Assembly: GCA_026692885.1 (NCBI GenBank)
Contig: JAPLNJ010001198.1
Location: 1-11,834, forward strand
DNA length: 11,834 bases
Source of the DNA: Planctomycetota bacterium
GTDB lineage: Bacteria > Planctomycetota > Planctomycetia > Pirellulales > Pirellulaceae
Direction of reading: 5' to 3'
Shown one piece after another: positions 1,452-11,688 of this stretch (positions within the stretch are counted from its first letter, which is position 1; every line of letters starts with the position of its first letter). The position numbers and the translations under genes are program-made. The notes beneath the pieces are model-generated. The model worked only from the letters and a program-made list of their open reading frames with translations, was not told the DNA's origin and ran no database searches.

Positions 1452-2192
1452 ATGGATCATTACATCGAAGGTAAAGTCATCGTCGTCACCGGCGGTTCCT
1501 CGGGGTTTGGGCTGGAAGCGGCCCGGATGTTGTTAGAGATGGAGGCCCAGGTCGTGATCAGCGGCCGGAACAAGAAACGTTTGGATGCCGCGGCCAAGGA
1601 ATTGGCTCATGCGAACCTCTTGGCGGTTCAGGCCGACGCGACCGAGACCGCCGACTGGAAAAAACTGATCGCCCAGACACTGAAAAAGTTTAAATGCATC
1701 GACGTGCTGGTGAACAATCACGGCGCCGGTATCAAGATCGCGCCGGTGGAGAAGATGGAAGACAAGGACATCGAGGCCGTGCTGAGCGCCAACTTGACGT
1801 CCGTGATCAAAGGCTGTCGCGAGGTCGTGCGGGTGATGAAGAAGCAGGGCCGTGGTTACGTCGTGAACGTCTCCAGCGGCTGTGCTTACCACTCCTGGCC
1901 ATCGTGGGCCGTGTACACCGCCGCCAAGGACGGTCTGGTCGGGTTCACACGCTGTCTGAATTTGGAAATGGCCGAATGGGGCGGCAAGGCCGGCACGTTT
2001 ATCCCGGGCGCGGCCCAAACACGTTTCTGCGAGGCGGCCGGCATCGCCAGCGATTGGCAGGTCGGCTACCCGACCGCTCATGATTTTGCTCGGACTCTGG
2101 TGCACTGCATCGATGTGCCGGATAGTTGCCTGATGGAAGAAGTGAACATCTGGGGCACGAAGCAAGTCAAGGAAATGCTGAATCCGTTCTAG
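1452..2192 (+). CDS. Short-chain dehydrogenase/reductase (SDR), classical type
   Basis: A 246-residue NAD(P)-dependent oxidoreductase, the normal length for classical SDRs; the substrate cannot be told. The Rossmann glycine motif is TGGSSGFG (13-20). After strand beta-2 comes SGRN with R39, which usually favours NADP(H). The VNNHGAG motif is at 87-93 and the active-site tetrad is visible: N114, S142 (in VSSG), Y155 and K159 (YTAAK). Residues after the tetrad contain IPGAAQTRF, the usual PG-motif region near the substrate loop. The ATG at 1452 is chosen because AGGAG precedes it and the protein then begins just before the first beta strand. The stop codon TAG (2190-2192) lies inside the arm of an intergenic palindrome, so the last residues could have been altered by that insertion. 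The relation to the kinase gene 168 bp upstream is unknown. Confidence 0.9.
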   Translation: MDHYIEGKVIVVTGGSSGFGLEAARMLLEMEAQVVISGRNKKRLDAAAKELAHANLLAVQADATETADWKKLIAQTLKKFKCIDVLVNNHGAGIKIAPVEKMEDKDIEAVLSANLTSVIKGCREVVRVMKKQGRGYVVNVSSGCAYHSWPSWAVYTAAKDGLVGFTRCLNLEMAEWGGKAGTFIPGAAQTRFCEAAGIASDWQVGYPTAHDFARTLVHCIDVPDSCLMEEVNIWGTKQVKEMLNPF

Positions 2193-2299
2193 TGCCGTTT
2201 CAGTTTTGTCATTCGGGGTAGGATGGACTTCCAAGTCCGTCGAACTACGGGTCGGACTTGGAAGTCCAACCTACAGGATCAATTTGGAAACGGCACTAG
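2189..2299. repeat. Nested palindrome A: 13-bp outer arms around a 22-bp GTAGG-type palindrome
   Basis: Outer perfect inverted arms are CTAGTGCCGTTTC (2189-2201) and its complement (2287-2299). Between them sits a second palindrome with arms 2218-2239 and 2253-2274 (22 bp, one mismatch), opening with GTAGGATGG and closing with CCAACCTAC. Each inner arm also contains the self-complementary GGACTTCCAAGTCC. The left outer arm contains the dehydrogenase stop codon, and the right outer arm ends 3 nt before the rarD ATG. Confidence 0.92.
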
Positions 2300-2302
2300 C
2301 GA

Positions 2303-3223
2303 ATGCCTGTGACGTCGAAAACCTCCCACACCGGCATCCTCTACGGCATCGCGGCCTATGGTCTGTGGGGTCTGATCCCGCTGTACTTCAAGGCCGTGGC
2401 CCGCGTCGCACCCCTGGAGATCCTGGCCCACCGCGCGCTGTGGTCCTTTGTGATGCTGGCGATCCTGGTCCGCGTCCTGAATCGCTGGGGCGAGGTGTGG
2501 CGGGAACTCGGCCACGGCCGGCTCATGCTTATGCTGGGGCTGAGCACGCTGCTGTTGGCCGCCAACTGGCTGACGTTCATCTACTCGGTCCTGACCAATC
2601 ACGTGCTCCAGGCCAGCCTGGGCTACTTCATCAACCCGCTGGTCAACGTATTGCTGGGCGTGCTGTTTTTACGTGAGCGACTGAGGCCCTGGCAGATCGT
2701 GAGCATGACGCTGGCACTGGTCGGCGTCATCGTGTTGACAAGTTTCGTCGGGCAGATCCCTTGGATTGCCCTCACCCTGGCGATCACCTTCGGCTTGTAC
2801 GCCTTGCTGCGGAAGCTGATGTCGGTGGACGGGCTGGTGAGCTTGACGGTCGAGACGCTCGTCCTGCTGCCCGTCGCCCTGGCCTACCTCGGCTACCTGG
2901 GCACAACCGGCGCGGTCACAGGCAGGGGAACGTGCGACATCGGCCTGTTGATGCTCAGCGGTCCTGTGACCACGGTGCCGCTGTTATTCTTCGGGGCCGC
3001 GGCAAGACGGTTGCGGCTATCCACGCTGGGCATCGTGCAGTATTTGACACCAAGTCTGCAATTCCTACTGGCGGTGCTCGCCTTTCGAGAACCCTTCTCG
3101 ACGGCTCAAGTAGCCAGTTTTGCCTGTATCTGGACGGCCATCGGCATCTACACGGCGGATTCGTATCGCGCGTTGCGGCAGGCCCGGCAGAACTTGATCA
3201 AGCCGGCCGGAGCGGACCTGTAA
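2303..3223 (+). CDS. rarD: RarD-type EamA/DMT-superfamily membrane transporter
   Basis: A 306-residue polytopic inner-membrane protein with about ten hydrophobic helices arranged as two repeats, the layout of the EamA/DMT superfamily. The N-terminus reads GILYGIAAYGLWGLIPLYFK. That sequence, together with LAHRALWSF (about residues 46-54), LQASLGYFINPL (about 107-118) and VQYLTPSLQFLLAV near 250, is characteristic of RarD (E. coli RarD is of similar length). The substrate is not established for the family; the name comes from a chloramphenicol-sensitivity phenotype. The ATG at 2303 starts just 3 nt after a palindrome arm and has no recognisable Shine-Dalgarno. The insertion has therefore probably replaced the native leader, and translation may depend on read-through from the dehydrogenase or on an unstructured start. 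The C-terminal tail is basic and probably cytoplasmic. Confidence 0.9.
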   Translation: MPVTSKTSHTGILYGIAAYGLWGLIPLYFKAVARVAPLEILAHRALWSFVMLAILVRVLNRWGEVWRELGHGRLMLMLGLSTLLLAANWLTFIYSVLTNHVLQASLGYFINPLVNVLLGVLFLRERLRPWQIVSMTLALVGVIVLTSFVGQIPWIALTLAITFGLYALLRKLMSVDGLVSLTVETLVLLPVALAYLGYLGTTGAVTGRGTCDIGLLMLSGPVTTVPLLFFGAAARRLRLSTLGIVQYLTPSLQFLLAVLAFREPFSTAQVASFACIWTAIGIYTADSYRALRQARQNLIKPAGADL

Positions 3224-3556
3224 CTGTGGTCGAGTCGCTCCGCAACTCCTTAGCTTGGAGTGCGGTGACTTGTCACCGCTTTTCAAGACTCGCTGCAAAA
3301 AGTCAGGCTACGCAAGCGGCGAGAGACAAGTGCGGATTGTCCGCGCTGGTCGCTGGCTCGACGACGATGCGGTTAAGTAATTCATAACCTGGCAGATCGG
3401 TGGTAGGACGGATTGGCACTTCGGCCCCGAAACATCGGGCCGAAGTGCCAAACCGTCCTACGGTCAAACTCCGGACGTGTTCTTTTCCAGCCACTAACTG
3501 TGTCTGTCGGACGGCTGTGTCAATGAAAAGCGGTGACAAGTCACCGCACTCCATAT
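3224..3556. other. 333-bp convergent intergenic region made almost entirely of palindromes
   Basis: This gap lies between rarD (+) and the M14/GATase gene (-), both of which end here. It has no credible coding sequence. It contains the composite inverted repeat at 3256-3553 and smaller hairpins at 3332-3344 (GCGGA/TCCGC) and 3371-3389 (GGTTA/TAACC). No classical T-tract terminator was found; the palindromes themselves are the only candidates for ending transcription of the two convergent genes. Confidence 0.7.
3256..3553. repeat. Nested palindrome B: 29-bp perfect outer arms around a 25-bp GTAGG-type palindrome
   Basis: The outer arms at 3256-3284 and 3525-3553 are perfect 29-bp inverted copies. 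Each is itself a hairpin (GCGGTGAC, TT, GTCACCGC). Inside lies an independent palindrome with arms 3403-3427 and 3437-3461 (25 bp, one mismatch), opening GTAGGACGG and closing CCGTCCTAC, with a 9-nt loop. The right outer arm ends 3 nt before the TAG of the minus-strand gene. The sequence between outer arm and inner palindrome (about 118 bp left, 63 bp right) is unrelated to either arm. Confidence 0.93.
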
Positions 3557-5107
3557 CTACGAGGCGGCCGCCGGTTTCTTGGGGGCTTGGGACTCAACTC
3601 CGGTAAGTCGTTCGGGGCGATCGCCATCGGCGGCCCAGCGGATGCCGCGGCGGACCAGCTCTTCCAGCCCGCGGGTCTGGTCCGGATGCGGGCTGAAACA
3701 GACCACCCGGCCTTTTCCGTAGCGACCCGCGACAATCGCCGGTGCACCGACCATGATGCCTTCCGACACCCCGGACTCAGCCACCTCGCTGCGAAACACG
3801 GCCAGGGGCTGGAAGTCGGGCAGATCCGCCCGCTGGGCGCGCATCAAGATGGGTCCGTTATGGTACCGGACGTCGCACCAGCGTTGGTCCGTCCCCAGAA
3901 TCTTCCGACCGGCGGGCGTAAGTTCCATGGCGACCATCCCCTGCCCCCGATACTTCTCCGCCGAGCACGGCTTGGCGTCCAGGATCTGCAGAGACCACGG
4001 GAATTCGGTCGTGGCCAGGTAGGCTCCGGCGCAGATCCCCACGTAACCGCCCCCGCGCTGCACGAATTCCTGGACCTTGTGCCGGTTCACTTCGCCCAGG
4101 GCTGCTCCCTGCTTGGTCGAACTGCCGCCCGGAAACACGACCACCTGAAAGTGCTCCAGTGCGCCGGCGTCGATTTCCTCCGCACCGAGCGGGACGACCG
4201 TGGCGTCGGGCAGTTGCTCCATTTCCCGAATCAGGTGGTGCATCCCTTTGCGCGTGCCCGGTCCCGCATAGACTGCCATGCGGAGCGAGCTGCGGTCGGT
4301 GGCATCGCCCGAGATCAGATCGACCGAGACCCGCGAATCGATCAGGCCCAGGTGCTCCAGCAATGCGTGCAGCATGACACGGTGCTGTCGGATGCGGAGT
4401 GCCAAGGGCTGGTCTTGGCTGGTTGTGGCTAACACCAAGGTCTGAGCTTGGAATCGTTCCCGGGCGGCCCGGGCCAAGCTGCCGCTGGCCGGCGATCCGC
4501 TGACGACGAACTTCTGGTCGTCGCCGTTGATAGTCGTGTTGACCGCCGCCAGCATGACCTCAGCGGCCAGACGCACCCGCGCAGTGCCGCTCTTCCCAAT
4601 ACTGCTGCCGATGTTGTGGGGCTGGCGTCTGCGGAAGTCGGATCCCTCGTGCAGGTCCACCAGCCAATCCGGTTTGGCCGCCGCCACCGTCTGCCAAAGT
4701 GCCTGTGCCGGTGAGTCGTCCGACCATTCGGACTGCGTAGGATGCGCAAACTCGCCATTGAGATTTCCACGCGACTTATCGATGCCGGGCAGATAGTGCG
4801 AGTTGGCCTGCAGCGCAGGAACATTGGCACGGGGAAGCAGCATGAGTCTGCCGCGTTGGATTGGCCAGTGGCGGATTTCATCGGCGGCCCACACGCCAGC
4901 CGGCTCGTCACCGTGAAGACCAGCGACGACCACCACGGTCGGCCCCGCTGCGCCGCTGTCTTGCACGTAGCAGGGCGTTGCCCAACGCGTCCCGGACGCC
5001 ACCGTCAGCACGTCTCTGGTCGCCTTCTCGGCGGACAGGCCCGGCCATGCCACAAGGCCCAGCCCCAGCGTCAGAAGCAACCATCGACCCGTCGTTCGCA
5101 GCTTCAA
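3557..5107 (-). CDS. Secreted M14/AstE-aspartoacylase-like metallohydrolase fused to a class I glutamine-amidotransferase-like (BPL_N) domain
   Basis: A 516-residue protein from the TTG at 5107. Residues 1-26 form a signal peptide: KLRTTGR, a leucine-rich core, then LSA. Residues about 30-260 resemble zinc carboxypeptidases of the succinylglutamate desuccinylase/aspartoacylase group. GLHGDE supplies H65 and E68, and DLHEG supplies H153. Two other hallmarks are missing: the substrate-binding NLNR motif reads NLNGEF (Arg to Gly), and the strand that should carry the general-base Glu reads LVLATTSQ (Ala at 227). Residues about 275-490 match the class I amidotransferase fold of the BPL_N kind. 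VVVFPGGSS precedes a nucleophile elbow, GGYVGICAGAYLAT (C359), and SPHPD carries H474. The C-terminal tail is low-complexity. The substrate is unknown, and the fusion suggests envelope or periplasmic peptide/amide chemistry. Domain types are fairly certain; loss of the M14 catalytic residues rests on motif reading without an alignment. Confidence 0.82.
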   Translation of the reverse strand: MKLRTTGRWLLLTLGLGLVAWPGLSAEKATRDVLTVASGTRWATPCYVQDSGAAGPTVVVVAGLHGDEPAGVWAADEIRHWPIQRGRLMLLPRANVPALQANSHYLPGIDKSRGNLNGEFAHPTQSEWSDDSPAQALWQTVAAAKPDWLVDLHEGSDFRRRQPHNIGSSIGKSGTARVRLAAEVMLAAVNTTINGDDQKFVVSGSPASGSLARAARERFQAQTLVLATTSQDQPLALRIRQHRVMLHALLEHLGLIDSRVSVDLISGDATDRSSLRMAVYAGPGTRKGMHHLIREMEQLPDATVVPLGAEEIDAGALEHFQVVVFPGGSSTKQGAALGEVNRHKVQEFVQRGGGYVGICAGAYLATTEFPWSLQILDAKPCSAEKYRGQGMVAMELTPAGRKILGTDQRWCDVRYHNGPILMRAQRADLPDFQPLAVFRSEVAESGVSEGIMVGAPAIVAGRYGKGRVVCFSPHPDQTRGLEELVRRGIRWAADGDRPERLTGVESQAPKKPAAAS

Positions 5108-5115
5108 GACCGTCA

Positions 5116-5122
5116 CTCCCTC
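5116..5122 (-). promoter_or_regulatory. Ribosome binding site supporting a TTG start for the M14/GATase gene
   Basis: Read on the minus strand, GAGGGAG lies 8 nt before TTG 5107. The frame also has a GTG at 5116 and a GTG at 5206. The first overlaps this Shine-Dalgarno and the second would put 33 residues in front of the signal peptide, so TTG 5107 is preferred. Confidence 0.6.
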
Positions 5123-5169
5123 GTCACGTTTCCGGCACAACGAGCGACTGGCCCGCGGCTGTCGATCTA

Positions 5170-5197
5170 AGTGTAGCCGACACGCGCCCGGCGTCCA
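5170..5197 (-). promoter_or_regulatory. Possible promoter for the M14/GATase gene
   Basis: On the minus strand TGGACG (5197-5192) and TACACT (5175-5170) are separated by 16 nt and resemble sigma-70 -35 and -10 boxes (four of six matches each). Transcription would start near 5163, giving a leader of about 56 nt. Weak evidence, from sequence only. Confidence 0.3.
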
Positions 5198-5287
5198 GGT
5201 CCCCACGGCAAACTCGAACTCCAGCGGCGGCGAACGTTAGGATCGGCGCATCAATAAGTGTCGCAAGGAGAGTAGACGGCACACTCC

Positions 5288-5427
5288 GAGGCTGTGAAAA
5301 AATCGTAGGGTGGGCCAAGTACTCGCGGCCCACCGTCGCAAGCAAGGCCGTTTCCTTGGAATTGGTGGGCCGCGAGTACTTGGTCCACCCTACCGCGAAT
5401 CGTGTTCGCACATTTTTTCACAGCCTC
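5288..5427. repeat. Nested palindrome C: 16-bp outer arms around a 30-bp GTAGG-type palindrome
   Basis: The outer arms GAGGCTGTGAAAAAAT (5288-5303) and 5412-5427 are perfect complements. One base further in begins an inner palindrome with arms 5305-5334 and 5364-5393 (30 bp, one mismatch), opening GTAGGGTGG and closing CCACCCTAC, with a 29-nt loop. The architecture is the same as repeats A and B. Confidence 0.93.
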
Positions 5428-5454
5428 TCCGTGTGCCGATTTCCGCACACGGAG
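5427..5454. repeat. Hairpin adjoining palindrome C
   Basis: CTCCGTGTGC (5427-5436) pairs perfectly with GCACACGGAG (5445-5454) across an 8-nt loop. The arm begins at the last base of the outer arm of palindrome C. On the minus strand it lies upstream of palindrome C. No T-tract follows on either strand, so it is not a standard intrinsic terminator. Confidence 0.75.
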
Positions 5455-5597
5455 GGTGCGGACTACTTTGAATAAATCCAAGCGTCATTGGTGCGCCGAG
5501 CGTTAGGACTGCCATCGTCCGAGACGCCTACGCGGCTTCAATGCAACTGTGGCCCCCGGCAGATGCGGCACGTTGCAGTTGCCGAGAACGTGGGCTG

Positions 5598-5693
5598 GGG
5601 GTCAGGCGTACAGAATTCAATTTTCGCGGACCTATCGCTCTTGACGGAATTGGGCACATAACCGCGATAATTGAATTCTGTACGCCTGACCCC
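5598..5693. repeat. Palindromic element with GGGGTCAGG ends
   Basis: The arms at 5598-5629 and 5662-5693 are complementary over 32 bp with one mismatch. They open with GGGGTCAGGCGTACAG, contain the GAATTC palindrome, and enclose a 32-nt spacer with no similarity to the arms. GGGGTCAG-type termini recall intergenic repeats linked to REP-associated Y1 (tyrosine) transposases, but that link is from memory and no such transposase is in the window. Confidence 0.9.
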
Positions 5694-5726: not shown

Positions 5727-5780
5727 CGATGCACCGTGGGGCGTGCATGGTGCATCGGCGCTGCGCTTGATGCACCCTAC
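5727..5780. repeat. Alternating inverted GATGCACC cluster, a degenerate GTAGGGTGC-type palindrome
   Basis: GATGCACC occurs at 5728-5735 and 5769-5776, and its complement GGTGCATC at 5749-5756, about 20 nt apart. The middle copy can therefore pair with either neighbour. The right-hand copy continues as CCCTAC (5775-5780), the usual end of the GTAGG family; the matching left end is eroded. The radical SAM stop codon (TAG on minus, 5777-5779) is part of this CTAC end. Confidence 0.7.
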
Positions 5781-9062: not shown

Positions 9063-9235
9063 CCCCACTGCTGTGCACATCTTCAAACGGGCCGGAGGCC
9101 GGTATTTTACAAGCACGACGCGCAAGCGAGTGAGTCTGGATTTCGCTTGCCGGTCCACCCCGGACTCACTCGCTTGCGCGTCGTGCTTGTATTTCCAGCC
9201 TTTGGCTGGCTGCCAAGATGTGCACAGCAGTGGGG
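9063..9235. repeat. Large cross-shaped inverted repeat
   Basis: The outer arms at 9063-9083 and 9215-9235 pair over 21 bp without mismatch. The inner arms at 9109-9136 and 9163-9190 pair perfectly over 28 bp, beginning ACAAGCACGACGCGCAAGCG. Between them each side carries its own small hairpin: GGCC-GGA-GGCC at 9090-9100 and CCAGCC-TTT-GGCTGG at 9195-9209. The whole can fold as a four-armed structure on either strand. The ACAAGCACGACGCGCAAGCG motif is one I associate with planctomycete intergenic regions. Confidence 0.93.
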
Positions 9236-9241
9236 CTTGCC

Positions 9242-9272
9242 CCTCGTTCCCACGCTCTGCGTGGGAACGAGG
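9242..9272. repeat. CCTCGTTCCCACGC hairpin
   Basis: A perfect 14-bp stem, CCTCGTTCCCACGC (9242-9255) with its complement (9259-9272), and a 3-nt TCT loop. Its 21-base core is the exact reverse complement of the core of the hairpin at 9323-9347. Confidence 0.92.
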
Positions 9273-9276
9273 ATCC

Positions 9277-9291
9277 GGACGCTCCGCGTCC
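9277..9291. repeat. GGACGC hairpin
   Basis: GGACGC (9277-9282), loop TCC, GCGTCC (9286-9291). A small stem lying between the two inverted copies of the larger hairpin. Confidence 0.7.
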
Positions 9292-9322
9292 CATGCGGCG
9301 ACGCAGAGTGTCGAATAACAAG

Positions 9323-9347
9323 GGTTCCCACGCAGAGCGTGGGAACC
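9323..9347. repeat. GGTTCCCACGC hairpin, inverted copy of the 9242 hairpin
   Basis: An 11-bp stem (9323-9333 with 9337-9347) and loop AGA. Because its core is the reverse complement of the 9242 hairpin, the pair can form either two local hairpins or one long duplex enclosing about 60 bases. Confidence 0.92.
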
Positions 9348-9372
9348 AGAGCTTTACAAGGCGGTTGGTAGC

Positions 9373-10732: not shown

Positions 10733-10792
10733 ATGGAACGTTTAGAGGCCAAGCAAGTCAACGGAGGAACCTATTATTACAGCACGACGTGA
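10733..10792 (+). pseudogene. 19-codon transposase N-terminal fragment
   Basis: The ATG at 10733 has an excellent Shine-Dalgarno (AAGGAGG, 6-nt spacing) but encodes only MERLEAKQVNGGTYYYSTT before TGA. The sequence resembles the N-terminus of IS4/IS1634-superfamily transposases, in which a KxxNGxxYYY motif opens the protein. The reading frame ends by a GTGA overlap with the next ORF, which is in a different frame. It most likely marks a deletion junction that removed the body of one transposase; a short leader peptide coupling translation of the next ORF is the alternative. Confidence 0.5.
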
Positions 10793-11688
10793 CGCAGGCC
10801 ACGAGTCTGGCCTTAGCCGGCCAAACGGAACGCGCCGCCGCAGCGGTGACACAGGTGGAAGCCCACACCGCCGAGCTCCAGCGGCAAGTCCAGGCATGTC
10901 ACGAACAGTGTGCCGAGAGTGCCCGAGAGCAGTACGCGGCCTGCCAACAACGGCAGCAGCGAGCCCACCAGGCCGTCCGCGGACTCGGCCAGGACTACCA
11001 CCCCTTCGACCTCCAGACCGGGCAGGCGTTGGACGAGAACGCGGTGGCCCAGCGACTGGCGGGTCACTTCGATCAACTGGACCAAATCGCCGCCGAGGCC
11101 GGCTTGTCAGCCCGCGCCACGCAGAAGCTGGCCAAAGCCCGCCGCGTGCTGAAGGCGATGCAAGCCACGGTGAAGTTCTATTGGACCCTGCTCGAGGTCT
11201 GGATCTCCAGCTGGAATCTGTCCCCGGCCGTCGCCCAGTGGCTGCGCGAGGATCTGATTCCGGGCCGGTATCTGGCACGGGCCGCCGAGAAGGCAGACAC
11301 GGCAAGCGAACGCCACCGGTTGCGGGAACTATCCCAGAAAATCCTCGCGCGGGCCCGCTCGCCGACAGGCGTGTGGGGCACGTTAAGTCCTGACCAACGC
11401 CTGGACCTGGAACGTAAGACGCAGGCCTGTGCCGACCTGTTTCAGCGGAGCAGTTCCTGCGTGGAGGGCCGCAACGGGCACTTGGCGCTGAAGCACCACG
11501 CCTTACACCAGTTCACGCCGCGGAAGCTGAAGGCGTTAACGATGCTGCACAACTACGTCATGTGGCGTGCCGATGACACCACGGCGGCTGAACGGTTCTA
11601 CGAGGCCGCCCCACGGGACTACTTCACATGGCTGCTCGACCGACTGGCTGTCCCCGCCCGGCCGCGTGCCGGCCGTTGTAACGCGTGA
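10789..11688 (+). CDS. C-terminal part of a DUF6399-type transposase (probable remnant)
   Basis: 299 residues from a GTG at 10789 that overlaps the stop of the upstream 19-codon ORF (GTGA). There is no Shine-Dalgarno of its own. Residues 12-62 are Gln/Ala-rich and probably coiled coil. After GQDYHPFDLQTG (67-78) the sequence is helical up to a highly conserved block, QRSSSCVEGRNGHLALKHH (219-237), then LHNYVMWRADDTTAAERFY (253-271) and LPxRP-like VPARPR (288-293). These blocks are characteristic of DUF6399 proteins from transposable elements. E226 in SCVEGRN could be the last acidic residue of a DDE site; the two Asp-bearing segments expected upstream are absent, so activity is unlikely. The frame is open only to 10717 upstream. 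The family name is from memory of conserved motifs. It could still be expressed by translational coupling. Confidence 0.72.
   Translation: MTQATSLALAGQTERAAAAVTQVEAHTAELQRQVQACHEQCAESAREQYAACQQRQQRAHQAVRGLGQDYHPFDLQTGQALDENAVAQRLAGHFDQLDQIAAEAGLSARATQKLAKARRVLKAMQATVKFYWTLLEVWISSWNLSPAVAQWLREDLIPGRYLARAAEKADTASERHRLRELSQKILARARSPTGVWGTLSPDQRLDLERKTQACADLFQRSSSCVEGRNGHLALKHHALHQFTPRKLKALTMLHNYVMWRADDTTAAERFYEAAPRDYFTWLLDRLAVPARPRAGRCNA

Follow-up and report, generated by a model that had tools for sequence, protein, structure and literature searches.

Repetitive extragenic palindromic (REP) sequences that carry a GTAG tag have been described, together with their dimers, by Di Nocera, De Gregorio and Rocco (2013; PMC3733652). 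That work reports an unpaired GTAG at the end of the stem-loop, head-to-head dimers, planctomycete hosts and REP-associated tyrosine transposase (RAYT) genes flanked by repeats. Its section 7 places REP dimers inside palindromes, with two species lacking any REP-free palindrome, and gives no mechanism; its section 16 reports REPs joined to unrelated stem-loops around two Pseudomonas genes. REP doublets in inverted orientation (REPINs) adjoin RAYT genes in Pseudomonas fluorescens and are randomly distributed over extragenic space (Bertels and Rainey 2011; PMC3116915). RAYT enzymes (TnpA-REP) process single-stranded REPs in vitro, and the weight of the GTAG motif in binding or cleavage varies among them (PMC8266576). 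REPs also are broken by insertion sequences (ISs); in type 1 insertion, exemplified by ISPsy8, the hairpin is split at its symmetry axis and a direct repeat of 3 bases is formed (Tobes and Pareja 2006; PMC1525189). Here we analyze a stretch of 11,834 nucleotides from a Planctomycetota bacterium of the Pirellulaceae (contig JAPLNJ010001198.1 of assembly GCA_026692885.1; the whole stretch is referred to as the window), in which three GTAG-tagged doublets each lie between the arms of another palindrome. This nesting is probably better explained by doublets that sit in mobile repeats between genes, in nests that can spread as composites, than by a taste of the GTAG family for hairpin loops.

An inverted-repeat search recovered both the inner palindromes and the outer arms (outers 1 to 3) that a preliminary description of this DNA had placed there. 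Inner element 1 (2218..2274) is a head-to-head doublet of GTAG-REP units (arms 2218-2239/2253-2274, 95% complementary), inner element 2 (3403..3461) is a GTAGGACGG...CCGTCCTAC palindrome with one long stem (arms 3403-3427/3437-3461, 96%), and inner element 3 (5305..5393) is a GTAG-REP doublet of 89 nt (arms 5305-5334/5364-5393, 97%). GTAG lies at the outer side of both ends of each inner palindrome, which is the head-to-head arrangement. Folding of the unit at 2218-2241 left GTAG unpaired before an 8-bp stem, and folding of the unit at 5305-5336 gave an unpaired GTAG followed by a GGTGGGCC stem (8 bp), a 10-nt loop and GGCCCACC. As single DNA strands, inner palindromes 1, 2 and 3 folded with z values of -8.6, -12.1 and -11.2. 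The inner palindromes are GTAG-tagged REP doublets, or REPINs, and all three nests are intergenic. The motif GTAGGRYGG occurs five times on the two strands of the window, every time within the three nested elements; shuffling predicted 0.23 occurrences, and none of 200 shuffles reached five. The motif thus stands far above chance. The right end of inner element 1, CCAACCTAC, differs by one base from the common ends GTAGGRYGG...CCRYCCTAC that had been proposed for the family.

The pattern GTAGGRYGGN{20,50}CCRYCCTAC was found in 3 of 28 genomes in one set and in 33 of 296 genomes of the order of G001 (relatives and their loci are given by our G and L numbers), with up to 65 doublet copies per relative (G078; 44 in G283). 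The base before GTAG showed a mild pyrimidine excess only (C 0.40, T 0.29; 184 flanks of GTAG doublets). The inner elements measure 57-89 bp and, unlike IS200/IS605 insertion sequences, encode no Y1/HUH transposase. A check for Y1 transposases, suggested in the preliminary description, gave Y1_Tnp matches in all 12 doublet-bearing relatives searched (104 matches altogether, 70 of which were viewed). GTAGGRYGG was present in 4 of the first 30 loci viewed and on both sides of the match in none. Among the 40 further loci, the motif lay within ~0.3 kb of the match in 7, flanking it on both sides in 5 (L226, L229, L247, L249 and L257) and on one side in L254 and L225, the last with a lone motif and no clear REP. 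The open reading frame (ORF) at 1527-2078 of L229 (G078) scored 179 bits with the RAYT model NF047646 (cut-off, 80) and sits between doublets of 88 and 128 nt belonging to the subfamily of inner element 3; their units read GTAGGGTGGGCC-GAGTTCTACGA-GGCCCAC, compared with GTAGGGTGGGCC-AAGTACTCGC-GGCCCACC in the window. The L257 match scored 185 bits with the same model, and that in L226 scored 70 bits, below the cut-off. Because the G078 RAYT ORF lies between doublets of this subfamily, the view that the GTAG family is a RAYT-moved REP type, which the preliminary description had raised, is supported. As in the described RAYT/TnpA-REP systems (PMC8266576; NF047646), genes above the cut-off stand beside the repeats in G078 and G263; the window differs in that no recognised transposase, Y1/HUH included, was found among its eight scanned proteins.

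The preliminary description had further proposed that the family inserts preferentially into the loops of existing palindromes. This proposal was examined with 113 doublets from 14 relatives. The left 250 nt of each doublet was aligned to the reverse complement of its right 250 nt, and mismatched flank pairs from the same genomes served as controls; these pairs lack independence, and both sides of the comparison are raised by the G169 composite copies described below. A score of at least 16 was reached by 6 of the 113 doublets and by 12 of the 1,536 controls (p = 0.0009), the six being three in G169 and one each in G283, G139 and G263. At a score of at least 12, the counts were 9/113 and 58/1,536 (p = 0.04); the window's own nests score 30, 18 and 13. 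A first sample, drawn from 11 genomes in which 239 doublets had been counted, took in 88 of them (26 from G139, 22 from G078, and 2 each from G169 and G283) and had given 3/88 strong nests against 6/1,364 controls (p = 0.014) and 5/88 against 49/1,364 at the weaker threshold (p = 0.37). It was enlarged since two of its three strong nests came from the thinly sampled G169 and G283, which are represented in the enlarged sample by 6 of 26 and 2 of 44 doublets. A flank common to another doublet of the same genome was present at 9 of the 113 doublets. Because 107 of the 113 doublets had no clear outer arms, a general preference of the GTAG family for palindrome loops is not supported, and in these relatives GTAG palindromes lie mostly outside other palindromes, an outcome that the preliminary description had itself named as contrary to its proposal. 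The excess of nesting over controls stands; copies of a single composite account for three of the six strong nests, so that four independent nests are left.

That composite was found in G169, where three of the six doublets sampled are enclosed by one kind of arm pair (GGACCGGCGCATCAATAAGTGTC type), with equal internal distances. The three copies are ~111 bp long, are identical at 99 to 110 of the 114 positions compared and have unrelated 300-nt flanks (best local scores, 10-11). They are bordered by direct repeats (TTA/TTA, TAA/TAA and, imperfectly, TAA/TAG). The G169 unit, outer arms and doublet together, has moved whole and left short target duplications. Its copies have unrelated flanks and direct repeats, and an established nest therefore can be mobile as one unit. 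This arm pair was seen only with a doublet in 0.18 Mb of G169. A lone 24-nt arm, AGGAYCGGCGCATCAATAAGTGTC, which is an outer arm of the G169 composite (L112/L386 and L405), also is present in the window at 5239-5262, upstream of site 3. In G012, doublets in L090 and L165 have weak arms of one kind, and two G012 doublets share a flank; this is a possible second composite. Doublets in G263 (L352) and G122 (L356) lie within similar outer arms (GCGTCA...TTGATC type), which perhaps represent another composite or a common landing element.

Outer element 2 (3256..3553), a doublet of another REP family, has arms at 3256-3285/3524-3553 (100%) with 238 nt between them, and its unit consists of TGGAGT, the hairpin GCGGTGAC TT GTCACCGC and TTTTCA. 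The string GGAGTGCGGTGACNNGTCACCGC was present in 3 of 296 genomes, and G012 and G176 were the two carriers of the outer-2 hairpin among 36 doublet-bearing genomes. Five outer-2-type copies comprise two empty doublets (G092) and three copies (G153 and G245) without an inverted partner of at least 18 nt in the locus. Empty outer-2 doublets, with no GTAG palindrome inside, lie at L167:2549-2664 (G012), L219:1413-1528 and L221:1498-1626 (both G092). Besides its inner doublet, outer 2 of the window has a spacer of 179 nt, compared with 48 and 75 nt in G092. In L167, copies of the outer-2 repeat stand at both ends of a 191-amino-acid HUH-type ORF (2688-3263, minus strand), and because of this arrangement outer 2 probably is a second RAYT-moved REP family. 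The L167 ORF as listed starts within its own flanking repeat (MECGDKSPHSK...), which may supply its start codon.

Site 3 is a nest of three layers. Its outermost element (5272..5466) is a GTAG-REP doublet of the form GTAGACGGCACAC TCC ... TCC GTGTGCCG, ATTT, CCGCACACGGAGGGTGCGGACTAC, the left unit of which is broken in its 3-nt loop. The interruption is outer element 3 (5288..5427), 140 bp of noncoding DNA with the terminal inverted repeats GAGGCTGTGAAAAAAT / ATTTTTTCACAGCCTC; its arms extend over 5277-5303/5412-5438 (89%), with a perfect core of 16 nt at 5288-5303/5412-5427. The DNA reads GTAG-AC-GGCACAC-TCC before the outer 3 arms and TCC-GTGTGCC-G after them, so that outer 3, which holds inner element 3, is itself nested in the left hairpin loop of a GTAG-REP doublet. 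The two TCC copies (5285..5287 and 5428..5430) also can be read as CTCCG (5284-5288 and 5427-5431).

The uninterrupted hairpin GGCACACTCCGTGTGCC was found in 34 of 296 genomes, with GTAG no more than 14 nt upstream in 36 of 45 copies (loci L262-L291). These 34 genomes were searched for the two halves of the hairpin 100-160 nt apart. The search returned 14 matches in 3 genomes, of which 13 were intact tandem REPs and 1 was a true interruption (G061:C339:4543-4680; L292). At this site, GTAGTAGGCACAC-TCC is followed by a 118-bp element, TCC-GTGTGCCG and a head-to-head partner. The ends of the 118-bp element are GAGTTTGTGATTTTTTGAAA / TTTCAAAAAATCACACGCTC, and GAGNNTGTGA is common to it and outer 3 of the window. 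The G061 element thus occupies the same REP position as outer 3 and lacks a GTAG doublet. Paired ends of the outer-3 form were seen at the window and G061 sites only, in 2.6 Mb of loci. Among the GTAG-tagged GGCACAC REPs of these loci, the right arm was intact in 73 cases and not in 4, two of which are the insertions. The same REP base is broken in both known copies; the G061 copy was found via the REP, so this by itself is no measure of target choice. Aimed insertion into a loop is seen most clearly for outer 3 entering a GTAG-REP, and not for the GTAG family. With its terminal inverted repeats, short length, lack of coding capacity and target duplication, outer 3 resembles a miniature inverted-repeat transposable element (MITE), and neither its 140 bp nor the 118 bp of the G061 element has room for a transposase gene. 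No parent IS was found for outers 1 and 3 or the G169 composite, the genome-wide searches for outer 3 being for exact arms.

The outer arms of site 1 (2189-2201/2287-2299; 13 nt, perfect) can be resolved into a 103-bp element (outer element 1, 2193-2295) with the 9-bp ends TGCCGTTTC/GAAACGGCA, between CTAG at 2189-2192 and CTAG at 2296-2299. The CTAG pair may be a 4-bp target duplication or, since CTAG on its own forms a palindrome, part of the arm. The left CTAG contains the stop codon of a short-chain dehydrogenase/reductase (SDR) gene. Outer 1 matches the G169 composite in build and is close to it in size (103 versus ~111 bp). By analogy with that composite, we infer that sites 1 and 3 each are a composite of an outer element and a doublet. 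The preliminary description had also counted it against its proposal if inner and outer arms always occurred as one conserved unit. This holds in the G169 sample but not for outer 2, which is empty in G012 and G092, or for the G061 relative of outer 3, which is without the doublet.

In the mechanism that we favor, RAYT (TnpA-REP) HUH transposases would spread nonautonomous GTAG doublets by acting on REP DNA folded as single strands, and the outer palindromes would be other mobile repeats: outer 2 a second REP family, and outers 1 and 3 small elements bounded by terminal inverted repeats and short target duplications (CTAG for outer 1; TCC to CTCCG for outer 3). Several families of miniature elements would crowd the narrow spaces between genes, where insertions are presumably harmless. 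A doublet that landed in a terminal-repeat element would become its core and could be carried onward by the transposase of that element, and such spread via the outer ends would make nesting look commoner than single founding events. One outer family, that of outer 3, would also land in REP hairpin loops. Which transposase is responsible, the order of events, and that the window genome behaves like its relatives are matters that we infer. A stronger form of this scheme, in which small terminal-inverted-repeat elements carry the GTAG-REP doublet as their core and so give doublets two routes (RAYT and the outer-end transposase), while a second GTAG-REP family offers its loop as a landing site to at least one outer family and three-layer nests result, is put forward more tentatively and may well prove wrong.

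How far the window nests exceed chance bears on the remaining explanations. For a doublet landing at random in its own intergenic gap, the chances of falling inside the outer loop are 28/53, 179/274 and 19/481 at sites 1 to 3, or ~0.014 for three of three; with the outermost REP doublet taken as the host at site 3, our own arithmetic gives ~0.07. The earlier judgment that the pattern is hard to explain by chance was put too strongly; six palindromic elements take 976 of the 1,946 noncoding nt of the window (~43% of 2,264 nt with later start codons). Perfect arms of at least 13 nt within 160 nt on each side, as compared with 13, 30 and 16 nt at the three sites, were present at 19 of 400 random window positions, a draw that includes the same elements. 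It is conceivable that each nest is a separate chance landing in an older repeat, with no composite moving in the window. The repeat content of half of the noncoding DNA, the empty copies of outer 2 and the presence of a non-GTAG nest at 9063-9235 would fit such a pile-up; given the chance estimates and the composite that moved as a unit in G169, we regard it as improbable. Preferential insertion of the GTAG family into the loops of other palindromes, by an HUH transposase acting on single-stranded hairpin DNA, would account for three nests out of three in the window, the excess over controls in relatives, the RAYT genes that adjoin the family, the near-central doublet of site 1 and the REP dimers reported inside palindromes of A. 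variabilis, T. roseum and H. neapolitanus (PMC3733652, section 7). Such a preference agrees poorly with the 107 doublets that lack clear outer arms, with the one composite that makes up half of the strong nests, and with the off-centre doublets at sites 2 (117/62 nt from the arms) and 3 (1/18 nt), and it seems an unlikely explanation. That the hairpins are kept for an RNA or chromosome function (terminators or mRNA stabilisers) and only resemble nested insertions is very improbable: all three nests lie between genes, and REPs are predominantly downstream of coding regions (PMC3733652), but mobility is evident in the target duplication of site 3 with its G061 parallel and in the repeated G169 unit with its direct repeats. 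Function and mobility are in any case compatible.

Several observations weigh against composites in mobile repeats as the source of the nests. Nesting at three of three doublets in the window far exceeds 6 of 113 in relatives, and since nests in relatives beat controls, some preference for palindromes could be at work as well; one hand-picked window neither shows nor excludes such a preference in its own genome. The doublet of site 1 is placed almost centrally in the loop, with 16 and 12 nt separating it from the arms. Inner element 2 has no clear single REP units. No second paired copy of outer 1 was found in a search confined to 2.6 Mb of loci, and exact copies of the outer 3 arm were found in 0 of 119 genomes (15 nt) and 0 of 292 (16 nt), exact copies being all that these counts cover. 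The L167 ORF falls just short of the NF047646 cut-off (79.9 versus 80 bits) and scores 16.4 with Pfam Y1_Tnp, against a cut-off of 23 (E value, 0.0098). Finally, when the eight window proteins were compared with the collected loci by tblastn, no syntenic copy of any nest site emerged; 7 loci match two of the proteins, the weaker one at only 26-40% identity. For orthologous sites, 80 of 359 loci encoding AstE/BPL_N relatives were retained, and a relative of the radical-SAM protein was present in 11 of 119 genomes.

The eight genes of the window encode a histidine kinase/response regulator, the SDR, an EamA protein, an AstE/BPL_N protein, a B12-radical SAM protein, a Gfo/Idh protein, a class-V aminotransferase and a DUF6399 protein. 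Among the matches listed for the Gfo/Idh protein, nearly all named relatives are planctomycete (Planctomycetes, Pirellulales and Thermoguttaceae, with one 'Nealsonbacteria'), and those listed for the AstE/BPL_N protein are from Verrucomicrobia and Pirellulales, with at most 49% identity. Proteins that would point to a closer relative, at 96-97% identity, also exist (P0001 and P0121). The DUF6399 ORF (10789-11688; E value, 8.6e-38) has a GTG start and no NCBIfam match at an E value of 0.01, and it may be a shortened gene. Rfam gave no matches at gathering scores, and site 1 had no match in a plasmid collection. In the non-GTAG nest at 9063-9235, arms of CCCCACTGCTGTGCACATCTT surround a palindrome with 32-bp arms (9108-9139/9160-9191), and at 9242-9349 the hairpin GTTCCCACGC...GCGTGGGAAC is present in two inverted copies as a doublet-like repeat. 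The arms of a 32-bp inverted repeat at 5598-5693 start with GGGGTCAG, matching the GGGGWSAS motif reported for terminal repeats beside some tyrosine transposases (PMC3733652). A GTAG-tagged hairpin, GTAGG-GTGCATC...GATGCAC, lies on the minus strand at ~5745-5780, within no other listed palindrome, and its tag provides the radical-SAM ORF (end, 5777) with a TAG stop codon.

Of the features seen here, the position of REP dimers within palindromes (PMC3733652) and the use of REPs as targets by ISs (PMC1525189) have been published before. The window shares with the GTAG-tagged REPs of PMC3733652 the unpaired tag, the head-to-head dimers and the planctomycete host, and its relatives share the repeat-flanked RAYT genes. 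That paper describes insertion into palindromes with one palindrome consensus per species, whereas three outer families are present here in a single window, and the direct repeats in G169 show that palindrome and dimer moved together. Like the P. fluorescens REPINs (PMC3116915), the doublets are inverted and adjoin RAYT genes, but the host phylum and the sequences differ, and the present elements are known from sequence alone. Outer 3 shares with ISPsy8 (PMC1525189) a position exactly on the axis of a symmetrical REP hairpin, together with a direct repeat of 3 bases; ISPsy8 has transposase ORFs, whereas outer 3 and its G061 relative are gene-less. Outers 1 and 3 and the G169 composite resemble MITEs in being short and noncoding, with terminal inverted repeats and short direct repeats (for outer 1, possible ones) outside them, and differ in having a REP doublet as their core. 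Our literature searches, none of which named a doublet as the core of such an element, turned up no account of terminal-repeat elements that move around a REP-doublet core and none of a gene-less element lodged in a planctomycete GTAG-REP loop; passages of PMC3189936 yielded nothing relevant. Movement of a palindrome together with a REP doublet in one relative means that doublets may travel by elements other than their own RAYT. Should REP-loop targeting prove general across the genome, REPs in high copy number would offer scattered landing sites at which genes are spared, and nests would allow waves of repeats in uncultured planctomycetes to be dated relative to one another.

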